Source: Planctomycetaceae bacterium (GTDB lineage: Bacteria > Planctomycetota > Planctomycetia > Planctomycetales > Planctomycetaceae). From it: 49,685 bases of DNA. Below, piece by piece: positions 1 through 17,711 of this stretch. The stretch is from NCBI GenBank assembly GCA_015485495.1, contig WFTL01000059.1, positions 1 to 49,685 of the forward strand, read 5' to 3'. Numbering within the stretch: position 1 is the stretch's first letter; each line of letters opens with the position of its first letter. A program made the position numbers and the translations under genes. The notes beneath the pieces were generated by a model that saw nothing but the letters and a program-made list of their open reading frames with translations, did not search any database and had not been told where the DNA came from.

Positions 1-2464
1 CAGACGCATCCTGTTTCTGCCCCTCGGTCGAAGGCTGCTCGGGAGCATGCTGCAAAGCGTGCTTTTTCCACTCACGATCGTAAACCCCTGTCACCTTCAT
101 CACGGACCAGCCCATCTGTTCCGGCGTCAGAGGTTTCAGGCCGGCCAGGGCCGCTGTCGATGCCAGTCCGTCCGTGATCTGCGCCATCGCTGCTGCGACC
201 GCCTGGGATGCTTCGTACGCTGACTGCCGCGCCTGTTCCAGGTCTTTCAGAAGCTGCTGCAGGGCCTGCTGATGCCTGTTCTGTTCGGCAAGAGCCTGCT
301 GCAGCGCCGCAGCAGCCTGCTGCTGTTCAGATTTCCGCGCCGCCAGCAGCGCTTCGGCTTCGCGAACGGCTGAAGCCGCCTGTTCGTGTGCCTGCTGCAG
401 CGGAGCCATGCGTTCGGTCAGCCGGTCGCCCACGCTCGTCAGAATCGGGTCATCGGGAATCACGGCAGCCGCATCCCCGGTGGCCTCGATGGCCCGGCGC
501 AGCGCGGCAACCGGCTTCTGACGTTCTTCCAGAATCCGGCGCGCCTGTTCCACAGCAGCCGCAGCTTCCGCAATCGGCTGCGCCCCGTTCGTCACGGCCA
601 TCCGGCGGTCGGCCACCAGGATCTCCTGTTCCTGCATCTGCTGCCGCAGTTCGGCCAGCCGGGATTCCATGTCTTCCACAACGGCCACCGTCCGGACAGC
701 TTCGCTCTGAAGCTTCGGAAACTGCGCGATTTCCTGCAGCCGGTCCAGATGTCGGCGCTGAGCGGTCAGGGTGGTTCGCAGATGCTGCAGCGTTCTGCGC
801 CGCGTCGCCAGTTCCGTCTCCGCCGCCCGCAGGGCGGTTTCCGGACCGGCCCGTTCCTCCCGGACAGCATCCAGCTTCTCTGTCTGCTCCGACAGTTGTG
901 TCTGAGCCGAATCGGCGGCCACCTGCAGATCCGACAGTTCCTTCTGCAGTGCGGGAATACGGCTGCTGAGTTCCTTTTTCCGTTTTTCGAACACGGCTGC
1001 AGACGCCTGCAGACCAGCGTCGTCCGGCAGATGAGACAATGCCGTTTCCGTGGCCGTTAGAGCGGCTGACAAAGCCGACAGGGCCTTTTCCTGTGCCGCC
1101 AGCTCTGTCCGTTTCTTTTCCGCAGCAGCAGCAGCTTCGGCCGCCGTTTTTCGGGCTGCTGCGTACGTTTTCTTCGCTTCATCATGTTTTGCCGCCACAG
1201 GAAGGAGGGTTTCCTGAGCGGCTTCCCAGGCTTCCAGCGCCGTGCTGAAGGAATCTTCAGCCGCATCGACAGCCGCCTGCTGCTGCGCAGTCTGTTCGGC
1301 CAGAATCACCGCGGCATCCGTGACAGCCGACGCAGCAGCAAACAGATCTTCCGGCCGGTCGTACGGCCGCTGATAGGCCTGCGACAGCGCGATTTCCGAC
1401 AGGAAGGCACGCAGATCGAACTGCATGGCCGCAATGCGCTGCCCCAGTTTCTCCAGAAGTTCCGGATGGACCGGCGGATTGTCGAAGTGATGCCGGTCGA
1501 GTGGATGGACGAGTCCGCGGCCGAACATCATGGCCCACAGTCTGTTGGCGATGTTCTCTCGAAACATGCGGTTGTCCGGTGACGTGATCAGTTCCGCCAT
1601 CAGACGGCGGCGACTGTGTCTGGGAACAGACAGAACGCCTTCACCCGGCGCCACGCTGTATTCGTCGCCGGGATAGTGAAACGGTTCCGGAACCGACACG
1701 CCGTCCGGAAGACGCGGGCCGGTGCGCCGCGTGGTGCCTTTGAAGAACACCGATTCGAATGTCAGATCGCTTCCGGCATGTTCGGCGTAAACCGTTCGAT
1801 CGATCGTTTTTTCCGTGTCCCCTTCCTTCTGCTTCACTTTCGTGACAACGGCGTAGCCGGGAGCGACGAAGGCATGCAGTCCGTGGTAATCGATCTGACG
1901 GTAATCGTCGATGTTCGGATGATCGTGGCACTGAGCGCACTGATAGTCGCGTCCCAGAAAGATGCGCCCGATGTCACGGGTGATCAGGTGCGGTTCGGAT
2001 TCCCGGTCAAGATAAAACCGCGCGGCCGGACGATCCGGTCCTTCGGCTCCGTCCGCTGTCAGAATGTCCCGCACGATTTCGTTCCAGGGACGCCGGCTGC
2101 GGACCTGGTCGTGCAGCCAGGCATGCCACTGAGCCTGGGGCACATGCTGATTCCGACGGCGCTCCATGAGCATCAGGTCGAGCGTCGTGGTCAGGTGACG
2201 GTCGAACTGAGGCGAAGCAGCCAGCCGCTGCACGAGACGACGGCGTTTGTCAGCCGCCTCTTCATTCACGAAGGCCCGTACCTGATCGGCTGACGGCGGC
2301 ATTCCCGTCAGGTCCAGAAAGACGCGGCGCACGAACTCCTGATCGGAACACACCGACTGCACGGGCAGAACGGGCTGAACCATCCGATCGATCAGTTCGT
2401 GCAGCGGTTCCTCGGCACCGGCTTCGACAGCGATCAGCAGCAGAAACAGAACCGCACGTTTCAT
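1..2464 (-). CDS. DUF1549/DUF1553 planctomycete cytochrome-like secreted protein with inserted coiled coil (3' end outside window)
   Basis: Reading from an ATG at 2464, the frame stays open to the window edge (about 821 codons), so the C-terminus is missing. Residues 1-18 form a signal peptide (MKRAVLFLLLIAVEAGA), so the product is probably exported. Residues about 20-210 match DUF1549, with a CAQCHDHP motif at 176-183. This is a CxxCH haem-type motif, but haem binding is not proven. Residues about 285-370 match the first part of DUF1553. From about 375 to 760 comes a very long Ala/Glu/Gln/Lys/Arg-rich heptad-like stretch, almost certainly coiled coil. DUF1553-like sequence (LTPEQMGWSVMKVTG) then resumes. 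The insertion is much longer than the usual linker. Members of this family are hugely amplified in planctomycetes and often sit beside DUF1501 or sulfatase genes; their role is unknown. No strong ribosome binding site precedes the ATG. Confidence 0.88.
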   Translation of the reverse strand, partial: MKRAVLFLLLIAVEAGAEEPLHELIDRMVQPVLPVQSVCSDQEFVRRVFLDLTGMPPSADQVRAFVNEEAADKRRRLVQRLAASPQFDRHLTTTLDLMLMERRRNQHVPQAQWHAWLHDQVRSRRPWNEIVRDILTADGAEGPDRPAARFYLDRESEPHLITRDIGRIFLGRDYQCAQCHDHPNIDDYRQIDYHGLHAFVAPGYAVVTKVKQKEGDTEKTIDRTVYAEHAGSDLTFESVFFKGTTRRTGPRLPDGVSVPEPFHYPGDEYSVAPGEGVLSVPRHSRRRLMAELITSPDNRMFRENIANRLWAMMFGRGLVHPLDRHHFDNPPVHPELLEKLGQRIAAMQFDLRAFLSEIALSQAYQRPYDRPEDLFAAASAVTDAAVILAEQTAQQQAAVDAAEDSFSTALEAWEAAQETLLPVAAKHDEAKKTYAAARKTAAEAAAAAEKKRTELAAQEKALSALSAALTATETALSHLPDDAGLQASAAVFEKRKKELSSRIPALQKELSDLQVAADSAQTQLSEQTEKLDAVREERAGPETALRAAETELATRRRTLQHLRTTLTAQRRHLDRLQEIAQFPKLQSEAVRTVAVVEDMESRLAELRQQMQEQEILVADRRMAVTNGAQPIAEAAAAVEQARRILEERQKPVAALRRAIEATGDAAAVIPDDPILTSVGDRLTERMAPLQQAHEQAASAVREAEALLAARKSEQQQAAAALQQALAEQNRHQQALQQLLKDLEQARQSAYEASQAVAAAMAQITDGLASTAALAGLKPLTPEQMGWSVMKVTGVYDREWKKHALQHAPEQPSTEGQKQDAS

Positions 2465-2887
2465 AAAACCGGTTCCGGGCAGGAGGGGAAATTGCGGCAG
2501 GAAGCGGCTCGGCCGAACAGCGGACGGAGGAAGGACGAACAGCCCGCTGCTCGCAAAAACTGGCGAAACCGCTGAATAAAAGATACAACCGCATCCCGGG
2601 GTGCGTCAATCAATCCCCGGATGTCGCGCTGTCGGACACGCTTTTTCGCACGGTTGTATCGGCAAAACCGGTGACGGCAGGCGGCCCGATTCCCTGGCCG
2701 TCCCGGTGTCGCCTGACGGTCCGAAACTGTCATCAGAAACATGTCATCCGGCTGAAGAAGTTCCACAGTCCGCAGCACACCACGGACAGCACAGATCCCC
2801 GCCGACCGGCAGCCGGGTGGCCATGTTTTCCTGGCAGTCACCGTCCTGGGATGTTCCGGTCCGGTCTGTTACACGAGAAAGGTGCTG
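2465..2887. other. Divergent intergenic region, nothing identified
   Basis: This 423-base gap lies between the divergent starts of the DUF1549/DUF1553 gene and the YjbQ-family gene. It must hold both promoters. I found no convincing -35/-10 pair, RNA gene or small gene with a ribosome binding site. The open frames here lack any recognisable protein feature. Confidence 0.5.
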
Positions 2888-3310
2888 ATGAAAACGCTGA
2901 CCGAAGAACTCTGGATGGACATCCCGCAGCGGCGTCAGATCGTGTCCATCCACGAAGACGTCGAACGCCTGGTTCGTCAAAGCGGTGTGCAGGACGGGCT
3001 CGTTCTGGTCAACGCCATGCACATCACGGCCAGCGTGTTCATCAACGACAATGAACCCGGCCTGCATGCCGACTATGAACGCTGGCTGGAAGAACTGGCA
3101 CCGTTCGATCCGTCTCCGGAACGGTACCACCATAACCGGACGGGCGAAGACAACGCGGACGCTCACCACAAACGCCAGATCATGGGGAGGGAAGTGGTGG
3201 TGGCCATCACCGATGGCCGGCTGCATCTGGGCCCCTGGGAACACATTTTCTACTACGAATTCGACGGCCGGCGTCGCAAACGCGTCCTGGTGAAAATCAT
3301 CGGCGAATGA
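2888..3310 (+). CDS. YjbQ / UPF0047 family protein (secondary thiamine-phosphate synthase-like)
   Basis: The product is 140 residues and spans the whole YjbQ (UPF0047) fold. Visible family features are the [18 protein letters not shown] segment near the N-terminus, the central [17 protein letters not shown] stretch with paired histidines, and the closing [27 protein letters not shown]. coli YjbQ has weak thiamine-phosphate synthase activity in vitro, but its physiological role is unsettled, so only the family is safe. I chose ATG 2888 over GTG 2882 because GAGAAAGG lies just upstream at good spacing. The gene is single and convergent with the next one; a strong hairpin lies between them. Confidence 0.9.
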
Positions 3311-3352
3311 ACTGCCCCGACCGAAGCGGCCTGCTGCCGATTCCGGCAGCCA

Positions 3353-3411
3353 TCTCTGCCGGACGTCCCGCACGGGTGTCGTGTCCGCAGGTCGGGACGT
3401 GCCGGCAGAGA
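3353..3411. terminator. GC-rich hairpin between convergent genes
   Basis: TCTCTGCCGGACGTCCCG (3353-3370) pairs with CGGGACGTGCCGGCAGAGA (3393-3411) with a single bulged base, around a 22-base loop. It lies between the convergent stops at 3310 and 3437, so it could end transcription from either side. There is no T-tract on either strand, so it may act as a 3'-end-stabilising hairpin or a Rho-dependent block instead. Confidence 0.6.
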
Positions 3412-3436
3412 CGCACAGCAGAGGCAGGCGGTGCCC

Positions 3437-3976
3437 TTACTGAGGATCGAAGGTGCCGCGAGGCTTTCCTGTGAGCGGATGGAGGCGGGTGGCGTCTGTC
3501 AGTTTCCAGCCGTCCGTTTCACGCACCCAGGTGGTTTCCCAGAATTCCGGGACATGCTGGCGCACCGACTGCCCCCGGGTGGTCACCGTGCCGTTCGCCC
3601 GGATGCGGGCCACGATGCGATCATCGGATTCGGACAGAATGTCCACGGACCGAATGTGGAAGTCGCTGCCGATCGTCACCAGATCCAGACCGCGGGAAGC
3701 AGTGGACAGCAGTTCCGGACTGTCTGCTGACACGACCTGAGCGATCGCATCCAGATCACCGGCCTGGAACCCCTGCAGAATGCGATCGGCAGCCTGTTCG
3801 ATCTGTTCCGCGGGCGACACAACGAATTCCGAAACCGCGAAGACAGCCGCCGCCACGACGGCCGGCACAGCCGCCATCCGCCTCAGTCCCGGAGACCCGC
3901 TGATCAGAAACACCACCATCAGACCGCCGAACAGCACCATCAGAGGCCACGGATTGTCTGTCAGGTAGTAGTCCAT
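3437..3976 (-). CDS. Small membrane protein with NTF2/SnoaL-like C-terminal domain
   Basis: The product is 179 residues. The N-terminus holds two hydrophobic segments (about 10-27 and 35-50) separated by a short charged loop. The rest (about 55-178) is soluble and looks like a cystatin/NTF2-like fold: AADRILQGFQAGDLDAIAQVVS, then alternating strands ending in WETTWVRETDGWKLTDA. That pattern is typical of SnoaL-like polyketide-cyclase or Calx-beta domains. ATG 3976 is preferred over the longer frame (4042) because AAAGGA sits just upstream and the extension has no protein-like character. No function can be given. It is transcribed divergently from the purA side. Confidence 0.75.
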   Translation of the reverse strand: MDYYLTDNPWPLMVLFGGLMVVFLISGSPGLRRMAAVPAVVAAAVFAVSEFVVSPAEQIEQAADRILQGFQAGDLDAIAQVVSADSPELLSTASRGLDLVTIGSDFHIRSVDILSESDDRIVARIRANGTVTTRGQSVRQHVPEFWETTWVRETDGWKLTDATRLHPLTGKPRGTFDPQ

Positions 3977-4254
3977 CGCGCAGTATCCTTTCGGCCCGCC
4001 CCGGGGCATTCCCGTCTGCCGGATCGCAAAGAAGCGAAACACGTGCCCTGACAGCTTTCATTGTTCGCTGCCTGACGAGAATTCACGTGACGATTTTCAC
4101 ACAACAGTCTGACAGGATAAGACCACCGGAATCGCCCGATATGTCTGTCTGATCGTCAAAAAACGGACTGGTCGACCTGATTTCCGCCCTTTTGTCGGCA
4201 GTCAGACCGGCCATTTTTCTCAGGATCGGCGGAATGCGGCTGCACCGACTGGAT

Positions 4255-4367
4255 GAATCCCCGGTCAAAATCCGGTGGCAGACTTCGGATTCCCGTGCGT
4301 GACAGTACAATCTGTCCGCTCGTCCCGACCGGACGTCCGTTTGATGCGTGACGTCCGGTTTTCTTTT
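4255..4367 (+). ncRNA. Candidate structured leader or small RNA upstream of purA
   Basis: Three hairpins follow one another. The first has an outer stem GAATCC (4255-4260)/GGATTC (4287-4292) enclosing CCGG-TCAAAAT-CCGG. The second is GACAG-TACAAT-CTGTC (4301-4316). The third is a perfect 10-bp stem, ACCGGACGTC/GACGTCCGGT (4328-4359), followed by TTTCTTTT. There is no plus-strand gene upstream that would need this terminator, so the element either ends a small RNA or attenuates purA 125 bases downstream. It does not match a riboswitch class I can recognise. The loop of hairpin two, TACAAT, could instead be a -10 box, which makes the start of any transcript uncertain. Confidence 0.4.
4328..4367 (+). 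terminator. Rho-independent terminator or attenuator ahead of purA
   Basis: A perfect 10-bp stem, ACCGGACGTC (4328-4337) and GACGTCCGGT (4350-4359), with a 12-base loop, runs directly into TTTCTTTT (4360-4367). It is the only hairpin plus T-tract of this quality in the window. It lies 125 bases before the purA start and points toward purA. Confidence 0.72.
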
Positions 4368-4491
4368 GGGGCCCTCCGTCGCCCCTCCCTGCGGACCGGG
4401 CAGGACGGTCTGTTCCGGACCGCACTGTATTCTGAATGTTCTGATTGTGAATTTTCTGAAACTGTCTTCCTGATTCCGACGAGTCATCACC

Positions 4492-5820
4492 GTGCCGGCA
4501 ACTTCTGTCATCGGACTGCAGTGGGGCGACGAGGCCAAGGGCAAAGTCGTGGACCTGCTTACCGAAAACCACGACGTCGTCATCCGTTACCAGGGCGGCA
4601 ACAATGCCGGCCATACGGTGCGCTTCGACGGCCAGACCTATAAACTGAGCCTCCTGCCGACCGGCATTCTGCACAGCCATGTGCAGTCCGTCATCGGTCC
4701 GGGTGTGGTCGTCGACCCACGCGCCCTGCTCAGAGAACTGGACAGTCTGGAAGCCGGCGGCATCGACTGGACCGGACGACTGATGATCAGCGACCGGGCC
4801 CACGTCATCTGTCCCTGGCACCTGCTGGAAGAAGCCGCATTCGAAGCTCACCGCGGCAGCCGGGCCATCGGCACAACCATGCGCGGCATCGGAACGTGCT
4901 ACCGGGAAAAAGTCGGACGATTCCACGCGATTCGAATGGGAGACCTGGTCAATCGAGACCGCTTTGCGGCCCGCGTGCGGGAAATCGTCCCGTTCAAACA
5001 GATCATCCTGGATGCTCTGATTCCGGACGGAGAAAAACTGAACGCCGAACAGATCATCGAAGAATATTCCGCGTGTGCTGACCGCCTTCGTCCTCTGGTC
5101 GCCGACACGACCGCCTGGCTGCTGAATGCTCTGGAACAGGACCGGCGTCTGCTGTTCGAAGGTGCCCAGGGCAGCCTGCTCGACGTCGATCACGGCACTT
5201 TCCCCTATGTGACATCGTCCAACAGTTCCGGATGCGGGATCCACAGCGGCAGCGGGATCCCGGAACGAGCCATCGACTCGATGATCGGTGTGGCCAAGGC
5301 CTACACGACCCGTGTGGGAGGCGGACCGTTTCCGACGGAACAGGACAATGACATCGGCCAGCGCATTCGCGATGCCGGCAATGAATACGGGACGGTCACC
5401 GGACGCCCCCGGCGATGCGGCTGGTTCGATGCCGTGGCCACGCGTTACAGCGCCCGCATCAGCGGCGTGGACACGATCGCCATTGCCCTCCTGGATGTCC
5501 TCAGCGGACTGGGGGATCTGCAGATCTGCGAAGCCTACGACATCGGCGGAACCGTGACACGGGATCTGCCGGCCTGTCCCGACGCGCTCCGCGCCGCCCG
5601 TCCCGTTTTCCGAACCGTCCCGGGCTGGAACGAAGAAATCACGGGAGCCCGCACATTCGAAGACCTGCCCCAAAACGCTCAGCAGTATGTTCAGACACTC
5701 AGCGAACTCGTCGAGCGTCCTGTTCAGATCGTGTCCGTCGGCCCGGATCGGGATCAGACGATTCTGCTGTCCCCGCTGCCGGGCACAGAAACCGGGCCGG
5801 AATGCCGAAGAGATTCCTGA
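4492..5820 (+). CDS. purA: Adenylosuccinate synthetase
   Basis: The 442-residue product catalyses the GTP-dependent joining of IMP and aspartate, the first committed step from IMP to AMP, in the cytoplasm. The family is clear along its length: QWGDEAKGK at 10-18 (the GTP/IMP loop with catalytic Asp13), NNAGHT with the catalytic His, [51 protein letters not shown] and [14 protein letters not shown]. Two usually invariant glycines differ. GDEGKGK is GDEAKGK (Gly15 to Ala in E. coli numbering), and IGTTGRGIG is IGTTMRGIG. The start is GTG, chosen because the family N-terminus aligns there; no Shine-Dalgarno is visible. A terminator-like palindrome follows the stop. Confidence 0.97.
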
Positions 5821-6635
5821 CGGATCTGTGAATCGTGACCGGCCGCATGCGGCCGGCCCGCATCGGATGTCAATGCCAGGTGAGGCCCAGGCACCGCCGG
5901 AGCATGTCCCGGTCGATGCGCGGCTCCCCCTGCGGATCGGTCCGCTTCCGCCAGGACCGCCAGACGCACCATTTCGGGTGTGCTTTGCACCCCCAGCTTC
6001 CGAACCGCGTTGGCCCGATGCTTTTCCACCGTTTTGACACTGATTTCCAGCTCCCGGGCAATGCTCTTGTTGGGAAGACCGGCCGCAACACGGGCCACGA
6101 CTTCCACTTCCCGGGGAGACAGTCGCTGCATGCGGGCCCGTGCTTCATCACGGCGACGCACCCAGTTTCGGAACTGAGTGTCGGCATCTTCTGCCTGATT
6201 TGTTCGGCCCTGTCCATCTGTCGACAGAGCGACTTCAGCCAGGTACACCGCAGCTCCATACACGGTTCCAGTCGGCTGGCGCAGCAGACTGCCCAGAATC
6301 ACGAACGACTTTCGGTGAACAGGAATCACGACGGCAATCGGCTGCCGCGACGCGATGGCATCGGGCACGATGCGGCAGGCCGCAGAGTAGGCAACGGACC
6401 AGGTCCGTTCGGACAGAGACAACTGGGCTTCTGACGTGAGGCGGGCGGCCAGAGCCGCATTGCGAAAAACGGGCTGTCCGTCCACGTCGAACACAGCCAG
6501 CGGATGCTCTCCATCTGCAGCGGTCGCCCGAATGTCTTTCAGATAGTCCGCCACCGCCGCGGAAAGACTGTCTCCTGTGCGGGGGGGCGGCGACATACTG
6601 AGTCGTTCCGGAGAGTCCACTCGCCTGGTCACCAT
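5754..6635 (-). CDS. LuxR-type transcriptional regulator with PAS-like sensor domain; C-terminus probably frameshifted
   Basis: The open frame gives 293 residues. Residues about 43-135 look like a PAS-type sensing domain ([14 protein letters not shown], ending [12 protein letters not shown]). Residues 171-231 are a complete LuxR/GerE helix-turn-helix: [36 protein letters not shown]. There is no receiver domain, so it probably senses a ligand or partner rather than a phosphate. After residue 232 (near 5940) this frame loses GC-rich third positions and runs on into purA. A +1 shift gives a GC3-rich tail, [22 protein letters not shown], ending at 5870, clear of purA. I therefore suspect a single-base insertion (sequence error or true mutation). 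ATG 6635 has a purine-rich GGAAGAAAGAG upstream; ATG 6596 is an alternative. Confidence 0.8.
5839..5856. terminator. Perfect palindrome downstream of purA
   Basis: CCGGCCGCATGCGGCCGG is an exact 18-base palindrome (7-bp stem, 4-base loop) 19 bases after the purA stop. It lacks a T-tract. Its position between the purA stop (5820) and an alternative stop of the opposing LuxR gene (5870) suggests it marks the natural end of both genes. Confidence 0.5.
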
Positions 6636-7264
6636 GGTTCTCTTTCTTCCTGCAGCCCAGGAAACTTCTCCGACAGCAAACCGGCTACGGGCATCCGCAA
6701 CGTGTGGATCACACCCGCGACAGCACGCGGCCAGATGTTCGCCACCAGTTCTCTGCCAGCACGTCCAGTTTTTTTCTTCGGGATTTCCCGCAGAACCCGA
6801 TTACTCGACGTCACACATTCTCAACCGAAACTGTCCATTTCGGGGGGAATCCCCCACGGGTTTTCCGCTTCGGTGCATGAAATCATGCAGCACAGTCGAT
6901 CACGGGACGGCACAGCCACTGATCTCCGGCGAGGCGTGCCATGACCGGTTCTTCGCTGATAAGGCCTCGGTCCTTCCAGCACTCCCTGGCTCTCCGGTTC
7001 TCAGATGTTCGGTTCCGCAAGCAGACCATGGTCACTGCCTTTCGATGTCGATCGCAGCCTGCATGGCAGCCGTTACTCTCCGTGAGACCGCAGGCGATCC
7101 ATACAGATCGTGGAAGAAAAAACGCAAAATGAAAATGCCGGCTGAGTATCTGGCCGGACACGTTGTTTCCGGAAGCAGTCGCAGGCCGGGCGAGGTTTCC
7201 GATGACCGTGGAGATATCCGCACCGGTGGTGCGGAATGGCGGCACAGCGGTCTGCCGGTCGGGG
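6636..7264. other. Long intergenic region, no gene recognised
   Basis: This 629-base gap lies upstream of the LuxR-type regulator and downstream of the phosphohexomutase-like gene, both on the minus strand. It includes patches of lower GC (about 6740-6860 and 7080-7140). A perfect hairpin at 7217-7235 probably belongs to the 3' end of the upstream gene, and a small GGGGG/CCCCC hairpin lies at 6843-6855. Open frames here have no recognisable protein features. Confidence 0.5.
7217..7235 (-). terminator. Hairpin downstream of the phosphohexomutase-like gene
   Basis: TCCGCACC-GGT-GGTGCGGA is a perfect 8-bp stem with a 3-base loop, 29 bases past the stop at 7265 on the minus strand. It has no T-tract, so this is a probable 3'-end structure rather than a classical terminator. 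Confidence 0.4.
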
Positions 7265-8707
7265 TTATGTCGGGCGGATGGTCGGGGAGGGCGGGCCGGA
7301 TGAGACACTGCTGTCGTGCGGCAGCGGGATTCCGGCATCGACCAGGCGGCAGATGCATCCGAGAAGAGCGAACCCGTCGGAAATCGATTCATGAGCACCG
7401 GGATGCCCCGGACGCGCGGCATCCAGAAGCACCACACGGTCCTCATCGCCCGGAACATGCGCGGTGACATGCGGCAGAATGTCGCCCGCGCGGTCGTTGA
7501 TCCAGCGAACGAGGGTCTCTGATGGAACCGGCCGGCCGTATCGATTGACGACACGAGCGAAACGATCGTCTTCTTCCAGAGCGATCCCCCAGGCGGATCC
7601 CGCTGCCAGTGTGCGCTGCTGCAGGTTCTGCGTGAGCTGCGTCGACGGTTCCTGAAGAACGACGTCCGCGACGAGCCCCTGTTCCGCGGCAATCCATTCA
7701 GCGCGATCTCTGGTCAGCGAATCCACGCACAGACAGGTGAACAGACCGGAAGATGCTTCCGGAATCCAGCGCTGCAGGTGGCGGCGGTAGATGCTTTCTC
7801 CCTGGATGCATTCCGCCTTCCCGCTGCGGCGCGACGAACGGCCGAATGATCCGGTCAGCCGGAACGCTGATCGGTGCCGCCGGAACCGTGCCGCGGTCGG
7901 TGGATCGCCCGGACACAACGGCCCGCTGACATCCGACAGGCTGTCAGGCAGCTCCTCCAGTGATGTGACAGCGGCGGAAATCCGATCGACGGCGGCCGCC
8001 ACCGCAGCCTTTCTGTCCGCCGGCCGCGGTTCGAAGCGACGGCGGGATCCGCCAGCCGGCGGGACAGCGAGGTTTTCGTCTGTCCACGGAACGGAAACAG
8101 GAGCACCACTGCAGTCGAACAGGTCGAAACCGACAGCTGCGGAATGCCACCCGGCTCCCGTGACAATGAGGCCCGCTGCGACTCCGGCCGTACTGCGGCA
8201 GATTTCCTGGATGGCAGCAGCCGTTGTCCGGCCGGCATCCATCACGTCGGCTCCGTTCCGGCGTGCCCCGTCGACAATTCCGCAGAAAATGTCGGGAGAC
8301 GCCGGGCGGCCGTCGAATCCGACCACCAGCCGCAGGTGGCCTGCCGACCGCAGAGGCAGGTCTGAACCGTCCGGGGCCTGCCGGTCTTCCGGTCTGTTCC
8401 GTTCCGCCTGATCCCTCAGGTGGGCCACCACGGCCGCGGCGAGCCGGGCTGCGACGGTGCGAGTCATGGCATTGTGCCAGGTTCCCCGGACTCCCCAGGG
8501 CGTTCGATGAATCGCCGTATCGGGAGCGGAAAGAGAACCGGGGCGCGATCCGTTTTCACGATGTCGGCACGTGTCGCATCCGACCCATCCGGCGGCAAGA
8601 CGCGCTCGATGCACACTTTCGCTGATCGGATGCTTTTCGCCGGGACACTGGTACCAGGAACGGTGTCCCGTTTCTTCCGTTCGCTGCGCGGTCTGAACTT
8701 CGGTCAT
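7265..8707 (-). CDS. Degenerate phosphohexomutase-like protein with N-terminal zinc-binding motif
   Basis: The product is 480 residues. The N-terminus carries C21-P-x3-H26 and C44-x2-C47, a likely zinc ribbon. The rest resembles alpha-D-phosphohexomutases. GVRGTW (72-77) and VVGFDGRPAS (128-137) match domain 1. VTGAGWHSAAVGFDLF (182-197) sits where the phosphoserine loop (TASHNP) should be. GIALEEDDRFARVV (374-387) sits at the metal-binding DGDGDR loop. RPGHPGAHESISDGFALL (432-449) resembles the sugar-binding GEESGH loop. The catalytic serine is lost and the metal loop is altered, and domain 4 appears to be missing, so mutase activity is unlikely. A binding or regulatory pseudoenzyme is my inference. 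There is no clear ribosome binding site at ATG 8707. Confidence 0.7.
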   Translation of the reverse strand: MTEVQTAQRTEETGHRSWYQCPGEKHPISESVHRARLAAGWVGCDTCRHRENGSRPGSLSAPDTAIHRTPWGVRGTWHNAMTRTVAARLAAAVVAHLRDQAERNRPEDRQAPDGSDLPLRSAGHLRLVVGFDGRPASPDIFCGIVDGARRNGADVMDAGRTTAAAIQEICRSTAGVAAGLIVTGAGWHSAAVGFDLFDCSGAPVSVPWTDENLAVPPAGGSRRRFEPRPADRKAAVAAAVDRISAAVTSLEELPDSLSDVSGPLCPGDPPTAARFRRHRSAFRLTGSFGRSSRRSGKAECIQGESIYRRHLQRWIPEASSGLFTCLCVDSLTRDRAEWIAAEQGLVADVVLQEPSTQLTQNLQQRTLAAGSAWGIALEEDDRFARVVNRYGRPVPSETLVRWINDRAGDILPHVTAHVPGDEDRVVLLDAARPGHPGAHESISDGFALLGCICRLVDAGIPLPHDSSVSSGPPSPTIRPT

Positions 8708-8742
8708 GACCGCCGCAGTGTGCAGAAATCGACCGCCGGTGC

Positions 8743-8785
8743 CCAGACCAGTCTGGCGGCTCCGGGCCGCCGGACGGCGGGAGCC
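8743..8785 (-). terminator. Tandem hairpins downstream of the LRR lipoprotein gene
   Basis: Read on the minus strand, GGCTCC/GGAGCC (8758-8763 with 8780-8785) encloses a smaller GCCG/CGGC stem. It is followed by CCAGAC-CA-GTCTGG (8743-8756). They lie 64-106 bases past the stop at 8849. They lack a T-run and overlap the promoter side of the next minus-strand gene. Confidence 0.3.
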
Positions 8786-8848
8786 GGGGCACTGCCAAAC
8801 CTGTCCGTCGTGTCCTGCTGATCCGGATGCGTCCGGTCGGCGGGACGT

Positions 8849-9919
8849 TCAGTACACCTGATCGCGCAGGTAGACCTGACAGTCGGGGTGGCGTTTTTTG
8901 AACTTTTCGACTGCTTCGATCGAGCAGGCGCTGTCGTTGATCCGCAGTTCTTTCAGGTGTTTCAGCCGGCCGAACACCTTGAAACTCACATCGGATATCC
9001 GTGTGACACCGTTCAGATTCAGGATTTCCAGTTCCGGGCAGCGTCTGAGCAGTTTGATTCCCTGGTCGGTGATGAGATTGTTGCCGGCCAGTTCCAGGCG
9101 GCGAATGTGATTGTTTTTCCGAAGCCCTTTCAGGGAGGCATCGGTGACGGATGCGTTGCCGACGTGCAGTTCTTCCAGATCTTCGAAATCGGCGATGTGG
9201 ACGAATCCCAGGGCACCGAAAACGGTTGCAGACGCCCGAATCACCTTCAGCGGGGCCCGGGCCCCCTTGTCTCCAAGATGTTCCAGGCCGGATCCTTCCA
9301 GAGCTCCCAGACGATTGATCTCCAGACGTTCGAGCTGCGAAAGCCGGGCCAGGTGAACGAAGCCGGGATCTGTCACGCGGGTGTCGGACAGGTCCAGAAA
9401 CTTCAACCGGGTCATATCGGAAAGAGCGGCCAGACTGTTGTTGTTGATGGACGATTTGTACAGGTTGAGCCATTCCAGGCCGGTGGCGCCGGACAGTGCG
9501 GACCAGTCGTCATCCGGAATGCGGGCTCCTTCCAGATCCAGCCGCTTCAGGGCCGGCAGCTTCGCCAGCACTTCCAGTCCCGCCCGCGTCAGGCGGGCTC
9601 CTTTCAGTTCCAGTTCCGTCACGGCTTCCAGCCCCGATTCCACGAGCAGGAACTGCCGGAGATCCGCATCGGTGACTTCGAACGTTCTTTTCGCGGCGAT
9701 CTTTGCCAGAACCGATTCGGCGGTCGGAGCGGCAGGTGGGGGCGGGGGCGGAGGCACGTCGGATTCGGATTCCGGAACGGCTGCCTCCGCCCTGTCGGCT
9801 GTCGGCGCAGGCCCCTGAGAATCGTCGGATCCGAATGGCAGTTCGACGTTTTCGCATCCGGTCAGAAAACATGCGGCCAGGACGGACAGGATGCCGCAGG
9901 ACAGAACGGTTCGGCACAT
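8849..9919 (-). CDS. Leucine-rich-repeat lipoprotein
   Basis: The 356-residue product starts with MCRTVLSCGILSVLAACFLTGC, a lipoprotein signal peptide with an LTGC lipobox, so it should be lipid-anchored. A low-complexity linker follows, acidic and then a run of prolines (PPPPPPPAAP). From about residue 75 there are roughly ten LRRs of the bacterial/RNI-like type: LKRLDLEGARI, LKFLDLSDTRVTD, LEELHVGNASVTD, LEILNLNGVTRISD, LKELRINDS. Such repeats form a curved binding surface; the partner is unknown. Similar LRR proteins are abundant in planctomycetes. ATG 9919 was chosen over upstream starts because GGAGG lies 6 bases before it and the signal peptide begins there. Confidence 0.88.
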   Translation of the reverse strand: MCRTVLSCGILSVLAACFLTGCENVELPFGSDDSQGPAPTADRAEAAVPESESDVPPPPPPPAAPTAESVLAKIAAKRTFEVTDADLRQFLLVESGLEAVTELELKGARLTRAGLEVLAKLPALKRLDLEGARIPDDDWSALSGATGLEWLNLYKSSINNNSLAALSDMTRLKFLDLSDTRVTDPGFVHLARLSQLERLEINRLGALEGSGLEHLGDKGARAPLKVIRASATVFGALGFVHIADFEDLEELHVGNASVTDASLKGLRKNNHIRRLELAGNNLITDQGIKLLRRCPELEILNLNGVTRISDVSFKVFGRLKHLKELRINDSACSIEAVEKFKKRHPDCQVYLRDQVY

Positions 9920-9970
9920 AACGGCCTCCACAAAACAAACGGAAACGCACAGGAATGAATACGCCCGTTC

Positions 9971-9999
9971 GTTGTACCGATCCGCTTCCGGACGTTCAA
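9971..9999 (-). promoter_or_regulatory. Candidate sigma-70-type promoter of the LRR lipoprotein gene
   Basis: On the minus strand, TTGAAC (9999-9994) and TACAAC (9976-9971) are separated by 17 bases. This would start transcription near 9964, about 45 bases before ATG 9919. Confidence 0.4.
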
Positions 10000-10046
10000 A
10001 CATTCCGGCGGCAGACACCATCCCGACTGACGGCCCCCCAACAGAA

Positions 10047-17179: not shown

Positions 17180-17251
17180 TACCCTGTGGTGTAATTGGTA
17201 GCACAACAGATTCTGGTTCTGTTAGTTGGGGTTCGAGTCCCTACGGGGTAA
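17180..17251 (+). tRNA. tRNA-Gln (anticodon CTG)
   Basis: The 72-base gene folds completely. The acceptor stem is TACCCTG/CGGGGTA with discriminator A. The D-arm is GTGTAATTGGTAGCAC. The anticodon stem is ACAGA/TCTGT with loop TTCTGGT, giving anticodon CTG, which reads CAG. The T-arm is TGGGG-TTCGAGT-CCCTA. The 3' CCA is not encoded. It has its own promoter and a hairpin right after it. Confidence 0.96.
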
Positions 17252-17252
17252 C

Positions 17253-17287: not shown

Positions 17288-17711
17288 TTCGCATTGGGGC
17301 CGATTTTCGTTTCCCGCAGCGGGTCGCTTGCGTTCTTCCGGGGGCGGGAAATAATGCGGTCCGTGACGTCGGCGTTCGTCAGGGAACGGGACGTTGCCTC
17401 CAAGTGTGGTGAGACCAGCCAAACCGGGTCAGGTCAGAAATGAAGCAGCCCTGCGGCCACCGGTTCTCAGGTGCATGCGGAGGCAACGTTTCGTTCCCTT
17501 TTTGCGTCCGCTTCTGATTCACGCCCTTCCGGGGTACCATCCGGCTGAACGCCCGACGATGGCTCCCTCTCTTCCCGGATCGTTCAGTCTCAATGTGCGG
17601 AATCTGCGTTTCGAACGCTCTGCAGGCGCCGGTGTCTGTTTCGGCTGACCGGCTGTTTCCGCCAGACTTCCGACGATTGCGGCCCGTTCGGATACCGGAA
17701 ACAGGAAAACG
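17288..17711. other. Intergenic region upstream of ftsH
   Basis: This 424-base stretch separates the tRNA terminator from ftsH. A candidate promoter (17328-17355) lies in it and would give ftsH a leader of roughly 350 bases. No protein-coding gene or known structured RNA is recognised. Confidence 0.45.
17328..17355 (+). promoter_or_regulatory. Candidate promoter upstream of ftsH
   Basis: TTGCGT (17328-17333), a 16-base spacer and AATAAT (17350-17355) resemble a sigma-70-type promoter. It would produce a long untranslated leader before ATG 17712, so a closer promoter may exist. Confidence 0.3.

Follow-up and report, generated by a model that had tools for sequence, protein, structure and literature searches.

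In this study we describe a short element in front of purA, a gene of adenine-nucleotide synthesis, in a planctomycete genome and its relatives. As judged from sequence comparison, a promoter, a hairpin and a T tract form one conserved unit that is tied to purA. We think it fairly probable that this unit acts as a leaky promoter-proximal attenuator of the gene and that its stem is recognised by a trans-acting factor. In the window, by which we mean the whole stretch of 49,685 nt that was analysed, the element is compact and takes up about 85 nt (4284-4367); its parts are listed in Table 1.

Table 1. Parts of the purA leader region and their positions in the window.
Feature	Position	Strand	Remarks
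Possible UP element, A tract upstream of the -35 box	4267..4270	+	putative role
-35 box TTCGGA, purA promoter	4284..4289	+	80% mean pairwise identity, 20 genomes
-10 box TACAAT, purA promoter	4306..4311	+	98% mean pairwise identity, 20 genomes
Predicted transcription start	4317..4318	+	6-7 nt past the -10 box; predicted from the promoter alone
Terminator hairpin	4328..4359	+	arms 4328-4337 and 4350-4359; folding, covariation, G-U cells
Interrupted T tract TTTTCTTTT	4359..4367	+	first T paired with A4328
Remaining 5' untranslated leader	4368..4491	+	second hairpin at about 4390-4424 in the window
purA, adenylosuccinate synthetase, GTG start	4492..5820	+	Pfam PF00709, E 2.1e-165

The terminator hairpin is a real feature of this DNA. 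As the initial annotation had claimed, a perfect 10-bp stem, in which ACCGGACGTC (4328-4337) pairs with GACGTCCGGT (4350-4359), is followed by a T-rich tract that ends at 4367 and points toward purA; the distance to the gene, given there as 125 bases, comes to 124 nt when counted from the end of the tract to the GTG at 4492. The stretch 4240-4375 folds with -59.4 kcal/mol (z -3.83), and none of 200 shuffled sequences folded as well. According to a purpose-written scan, the purA-leader hairpin is the only strong intrinsic terminator of the window. A consensus scan of positions 1-10000 picked up neither this hairpin nor the purA promoter; the hairpin was missed because of the scan's loop limit of 8 nt, and the 8 terminator-like sites that it returned are at chance level (mean 7.7). 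An Rfam search of the element gave zero families at the curated threshold, and a relaxed search (E up to 10) gave chance-level matches only, the best overlap being sX9, whose 15.2 bits fall short of its gathering score of 44. Together with the missing space for an aptamer, this bears out the earlier impression that the element is not a known purine-responsive riboswitch. Likewise it was rightly noted that no plus-strand gene lies just upstream: the adjoining ORF (3437-4042, 201 aa), situated between a UPF0047 family gene (2882-3310, plus strand) and purA, is on the minus strand and had zero Pfam matches. Elsewhere the window contains a tRNA-Gln (CTG) at 17180-17252 and then a bacterial small SRP RNA at 17393-17490.

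When 40 related genomes were searched at the DNA level, the 3' half of the element turned up in both other members of the genus, again before purA and behind an upstream gene different from that of the window. For a wider comparison purA was located in 154 of 170 family genomes, 30 of which were used as loci, together with 80 named records that are the best 80 of at least 568 matches. Among these 80 records (the best of at least 568), the Fuerstiella metagenome-assembled genome L038 is the nearest relative with a name, at 84% purA identity. Clade leaders were defined by a purA identity above 70%, and 28 distinct ones were left after duplicates had been merged; L036, a purA fragment of genome G148, had no usable upstream sequence. 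The hairpin and T tract are recognisable in 21 of the 28, one of which (L033) is degenerate. The search of planctomycetes upstream of purA that had been proposed earlier recovers the unit of promoter, hairpin and T tract in 21 genomes, which belong to four genera around Fuerstiella and to one clade only.

Within this clade the arrangement of the unit is strikingly regular. From the beginning of the -10 box to the end of the T tract there are 54-63 nt in 20 of the 21 leaders, and exactly 59 in 12; the exception is L031, in which TACAAT, a doubtful promoter box there, lies 170 nt from the end of the T tract. Because of this distant box L031 was omitted from alignment A2, the promoter identities, the folding z values and the stem spacing, and was kept for dyad length. 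The parts of the unit fall into a conserved and a variable group. Mean pairwise identity is 0.98 for the -10 box, 0.80 for the -35 box, 0.82 and 0.80 for the stem arms and 0.89 for the T tract, as against 0.32 for the promoter spacer, 0.33 for the leader ahead of the stem and 0.35 for the loop. The stem starts 11-18 nt past the -10 box (20 leaders, without L031). If transcription starts about 7 nt past that box, the expected position is about +6 to +13 for the first base of the stem and about +41 to +50 for the end of the T tract, so that a hairpin with a U tract separates promoter and start codon, no more than about 50 nt from the predicted start. The T tract is followed by a G in 21 of 21 leaders; the extraction pattern demanded this G, and a pattern without that demand, run on the same 21 only, gave identical sites. 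A GTP-sensitive read-through via this G was considered as well and is weakened by the many terminators of genome G052 that also have a G after the T run.

The promoter takes the form of TTCGGA or a variant, 16 nt and then TACAAT or TAGAAT in 20 of the 21 leaders. Its -35 box fits TTGACA at 3 of 6 bases, which makes it a poor match to the sigma-70 consensus. A search of seven genomes for the pattern TTCGGAWT-N13..15-TACAAT gave 7 matches, of which 5 are at purA, and the reversed control gave 0. In the A-rich block upstream of the -35 box one A is nearly invariant (at least 90% of the 20 rows of alignment A2). It is this conserved promoter that underlies the two 5' hairpins of the earlier description, in which three successive stems had been proposed. 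The promoter stretch of the window does fold (z -3.59). Averaged over 20 genomes, however, the folding z of the DNA upstream of the promoter is 0.03 and that of the promoter itself -0.03, compared to -4.78 for the terminator. For the second 5' hairpin 48.8% of cells pair, a value reached by 20 of 500 shuffles, and 50.4% pair if the alignment is slid by one column. Hence the third stem, the terminator, stands as a conserved structure, whereas the first two are unstructured in relatives and overlie the promoter, and an RNA of three hairpins is out since across relatives the structure is confined to the terminator in both mean z and the pairing test. As the predicted start places the beginning of the terminator stem at roughly +6 to +13, the first two hairpins lie over the promoter and should be mostly absent from transcripts that it produces. 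The comparison thus describes the element as one conserved hairpin behind a promoter.

The covariance test that had been suggested for the stems backs an RNA hairpin in the case of the terminator, through the pairing of its cells and through compensatory and G-U changes. In the terminator stem 89.4% of cells pair, and 0 of 500 shuffles were as high. Pairs that changed on both sides number 5 of 13, which is not unusual (97 of 500 shuffles as high); cells that changed on both sides number 11 against a shuffled mean of 4.5, with 0 of 500 as high, and the covariation score is 0.237 (1 of 500 shuffles). The cells that are not Watson-Crick comprise 18 G-U, 1 A-C and 5 other, in related sequences that do not represent independent events; before the removal of rows (L033 and the two inner pairs of L008-L010) the counts were 19 G-U, 2 A-C and 12 other. 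Such an excess of G-U points to RNA pairing, since symmetry of a DNA dyad would not favour G-U.

Several observations link the unit to purA rather than to its surroundings. Across the 21 genomes the upstream neighbours are of about 12 different kinds and in both orientations; they were read from approximate ORFs, the calls being a greedy longest-ORF approximation that mis-called the strand of purA in the window. Because the unit has been kept through all these neighbours, it appears to belong to purA. The interval from the T tract with its G to the start codon ranges from 30 to 123 nt among the relatives, and in 15 of 21 leaders there is no -10-like hexamer between T tract and purA. In L024, L026, L027 and L031 only 30-36 nt are left, which is too short for another promoter unless it overlapped the hairpin. 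In these four genomes purA would, by this reasoning, most likely be transcribed through the hairpin and its T tract. A further hairpin near the start codon (4390-4424 in the window) is seen in L011, L013, L016, L018, L019 and L022 as well; it has apparent compensatory differences in genus g41, is missing where the interval is short and is not universal.

On the purA tree the presence of the hairpin needs 2 changes, which we read as one gain and one loss. The loss or decay concerns a subclade of eight whose support (92/95) is below the starred level. The hairpin is dispensable, because this subclade lives without it. TACAAT is retained in 6 of the 7 leaders that do not have the pattern of hairpin and T tract. 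A terminator within the last 200 nt of the purA leader was detected in 19 of 28 leaders inside the clade, by a scan that misses the hairpin carrier L016, vs 3 of 66 outside, the latter representing the nearer part of the phylum as drawn from the best 80 of at least 568 matches. In one planctomycete outside the clade (L101) a TACCAT box is closely followed by a hairpin and a T run before purA, perhaps by convergence.

Is the hairpin simply one of the terminators that these genomes use at gene ends? In 400 kb of genome G052 we counted 18 strong terminators, that of purA included, of which 7 sit 46-64 nt after a stop codon of an ORF called by the same greedy approximation. As controls we took two genes with a gene-end terminator in the same genome set, with 18 loci (of 22; L192-L195, at 41-43% identity, were left out) and 21 loci. 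Most of the control proteins show lower conservation than purA; terminators were detected in 10 of the 18 and 9 of the 21 loci. Identity of the 3' arm is 0.35 (10 terminators) and 0.32 (9 terminators) for the gene-end terminators, and 0.80 over 21 genomes for the purA hairpin, or 0.76 if restricted to the first control's ten genomes. Gene-end hairpins have mostly turned over, though one is still common to near relatives, for instance L174 and L175. All 21 purA leaders have a break among the first five bases of the T tract, compared with 2 of the 19 gene-end terminators from these genomes. Predicted strength is moderate, with d between 18 and 38 in 19 of 21 leaders (L030 has 5.3 and L033 -44.2), and seven gene-end controls range from 19 to 73. 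On these comparisons the purA hairpin differs from ordinary terminators. Gene-end terminators of the clade repeatedly use a near-identical hairpin, AAGCCCGGCT-loop-AGCCGGGCTT, found in the G052 stretches L160, L165 and L166-L167 and at loci L179, L183, L196 and L205; it is perhaps a dispersed or a preferred terminator sequence.

A covariance model (R1) run on the 170 family genomes gave 22 strong purA-type matches, 21 of which had been used to build the model and match by construction; the remaining one, in G148, sits on a different contig from the listed purA fragment, so that its link to purA is presumptive. At E up to 0.05 there were 55 genomes with matches, among them the 22 with the strong one. 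When seven genomes were searched to E 10, each had one strong copy and the next best match had an E value of 0.0024. Eight weaker loci that we read (L140-L147) lie behind an ORF or a tRNA, and two genomes of another genus (G172, G176) have matches at E about 1e-5 away from purA, just past an ORF. Exact tail patterns are rare. In a class-wide sample 19 of 297 genomes had matches at E 0.001; no new genus with a purA-linked match was seen in these 297, and two new weak matches (G269, G282) were left aside. Within the family and class-wide genomes searched, the element was detected in one clade and not beyond it. One of the weaker loci, L146 from another genus, carries at about 1501-1557 a stem close to that of purA, CCGGACGTCGG...CGACGTCCGG, with a T tract, flanked by ORFs for a Mur ligase and a beta-helix protein that are both on the plus strand. 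This hairpin is likely a gene-end terminator and less likely a leader element.

The initial annotation had left open whether the element is a small RNA or an attenuation leader of purA. The linkage to purA, the retained -10 box and the four short intervals favour the attenuation leader, and a stand-alone small RNA is unlikely. Such an RNA, of about 41-50 nt and acting in trans, would make purA a mere neighbour or by-product reader; we regard this as improbable, although the unit has a promoter and terminator of its own, coding potential is not needed, and 5'-leader small RNAs of 60-81 nt such as E. coli IspZ are a precedent (PMC7815308). It would hardly explain why the linkage to purA persists through about 12 upstream neighbours or why four genomes leave 30-36 nt before the start codon, and the unpaired parts in which a seed would be sought are not conserved (leader 33%, loop 35%). 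For a base-pairing small RNA we found neither a conserved unpaired seed nor independence from the downstream gene. The same hairpin might instead shield the 5' end of purA mRNA from decay, with termination being incidental. With a start at roughly +6 to +13, counted from the predicted 5' end, it has a 5'-proximal position known for hairpins that stabilise mRNA, but a stabiliser would not need the T tract, which is nevertheless 89% identical, and we think this very improbable. A slim chance is left to the idea that a repressor binds the inverted repeat as a DNA operator just past the promoter. The dyad is near-perfect, conserved in sequence and at a near-fixed distance from the promoter; however, the 18 G-U cells against 1 A-C and 5 other are explained by RNA pairing and not predicted by DNA symmetry, the length of the dyad (between outer arm ends) varies from 26 to 30 nt, and the T tract is conserved too. 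With the G-U excess and the varying dyad, neither symmetry as DNA nor a fixed spacing of half-sites was found.

Sensing in cis seems to be excluded by lack of room. With about 5-12 nt of unconserved RNA ahead of the hairpin, there is no place for an aptamer, an antiterminator or a leader peptide, and the alignments accordingly suggest no cis sensor at all. A metabolite riboswitch was rejected since these few nucleotides have no space for an aptamer, the upstream DNA is unstructured on average and Rfam was blank; a leader-peptide attenuator was rejected since the predicted start and the stem leave no room for a short ORF with regulatory codons. The position in the leader of a purine gene is what a riboswitch or a ribosome-mediated attenuator of known type would predict, but with the Rfam threshold unmet and relaxed matches at chance level, we give this explanation practically no weight. 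If there is no cis sensor, the hairpin would be either a fixed damping factor or the target of a trans-acting factor. The former, a constitutive and unregulated leaky terminator that cuts purA expression by a fixed factor, is unlikely but has to be taken seriously: predicted strength is moderate, the T tract is interrupted, no sensor in cis is seen, and a subclade has lost the hairpin without visible replacement. Against it stands the sequence, which has been kept (0.76-0.80) while that of gene-end terminators in the same genomes has not (0.32-0.35). Such retention of the stem sequence speaks for a stem-recognising factor, but the constraint on the stem could also have another cause.

Regulation by a terminator shortly after the promoter has been noted before. 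In the model for the E. coli ampC attenuator a ribosome binds in the leader before the terminator. The short and unconserved purA leader has no visible counterpart to this: by reading the 21 leaders (33% identity) we found no conserved Shine-Dalgarno-like sequence before the terminator. The ampC attenuator is described as the region +17 to +37, and mutations in it by which the stem-loop is destabilised are reported to increase expression (PMC9241650, where Jaurin et al. 1981 is cited). Like the purA unit, ampC has a terminator hairpin tens of nucleotides past the promoter, in the leader of its own gene; gene, sequence and phylum differ, and it is the purA stem whose sequence is conserved across genera. 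For the 5' UTR of E. coli ispU (uppS), another paper describes leader transcripts of 60 and 81 nt, an intrinsic terminator with a 6-bp stem and eight U, and IspZ as an sRNA sponge (PMC7815308). Both systems would have a short leader transcript ended by an intrinsic terminator before a housekeeping gene, but gene and sequence differ, and the sponge role is that of IspZ, none being known for the purA leader. We take the resemblances to ampC and ispU as a likeness in working and not as homology. As in the purine riboswitch RF00167 and other terminator riboswitches, an intrinsic terminator in the leader would control a purine gene; unlike RF00167 and other metabolite riboswitches, the purA leader has no room for an aptamer or antiterminator and no Rfam match. 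In phage antitermination (lambdoid Q; HK022 put RNA) a modified polymerase overcomes a terminator soon after the promoter. The purA terminator is likewise soon after its promoter, which makes this a possible mechanism only; unlike for lambdoid Q and HK022 put, no phage context and no put-like pair of hairpins was seen at purA. Among the matches listed from the open-licence literature there was neither a purA leader attenuator in planctomycetes nor work on the regulation of planctomycete purA.

Our preferred reading, a leaky attenuator with a stem recognised in trans, would work as follows. RNA polymerase would start at about 4317 and within about 50 nt would have made a GC-rich hairpin of 10-13 bp and an interrupted U tract. 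Many polymerases would halt at the U tract and release an RNA of about 41-50 nt, and the remaining ones would read through to give purA mRNA; both termination and partial read-through are predictions. A trans-acting factor that recognises the stem, either on the RNA or on the transcribing complex, might shift this balance, which would then follow purine supply or growth. A more specific version, which we put forward tentatively and hold to be doubtful, is that a protein recognising the sequence of the terminator stem sets AMP synthesis; candidates are adenylosuccinate synthetase itself and a factor that binds the polymerase and is loaded at the promoter.

As a rule, attenuators are identified by their aptamers or leader peptides. 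If the more specific version is true, these planctomycetes would attenuate purA in a way that makes the terminator, only about 6-13 nt into the transcript, the very element that is specifically recognised. A terminator that has neither aptamer nor leader peptide, and whose stem has been kept while gene-end terminators of the same genomes turned over, speaks for early termination being under a sequence-specific regulator. The order of promoter, 11-18 nt, terminator and gene might serve as a search rule for other attenuators that work without an aptamer.
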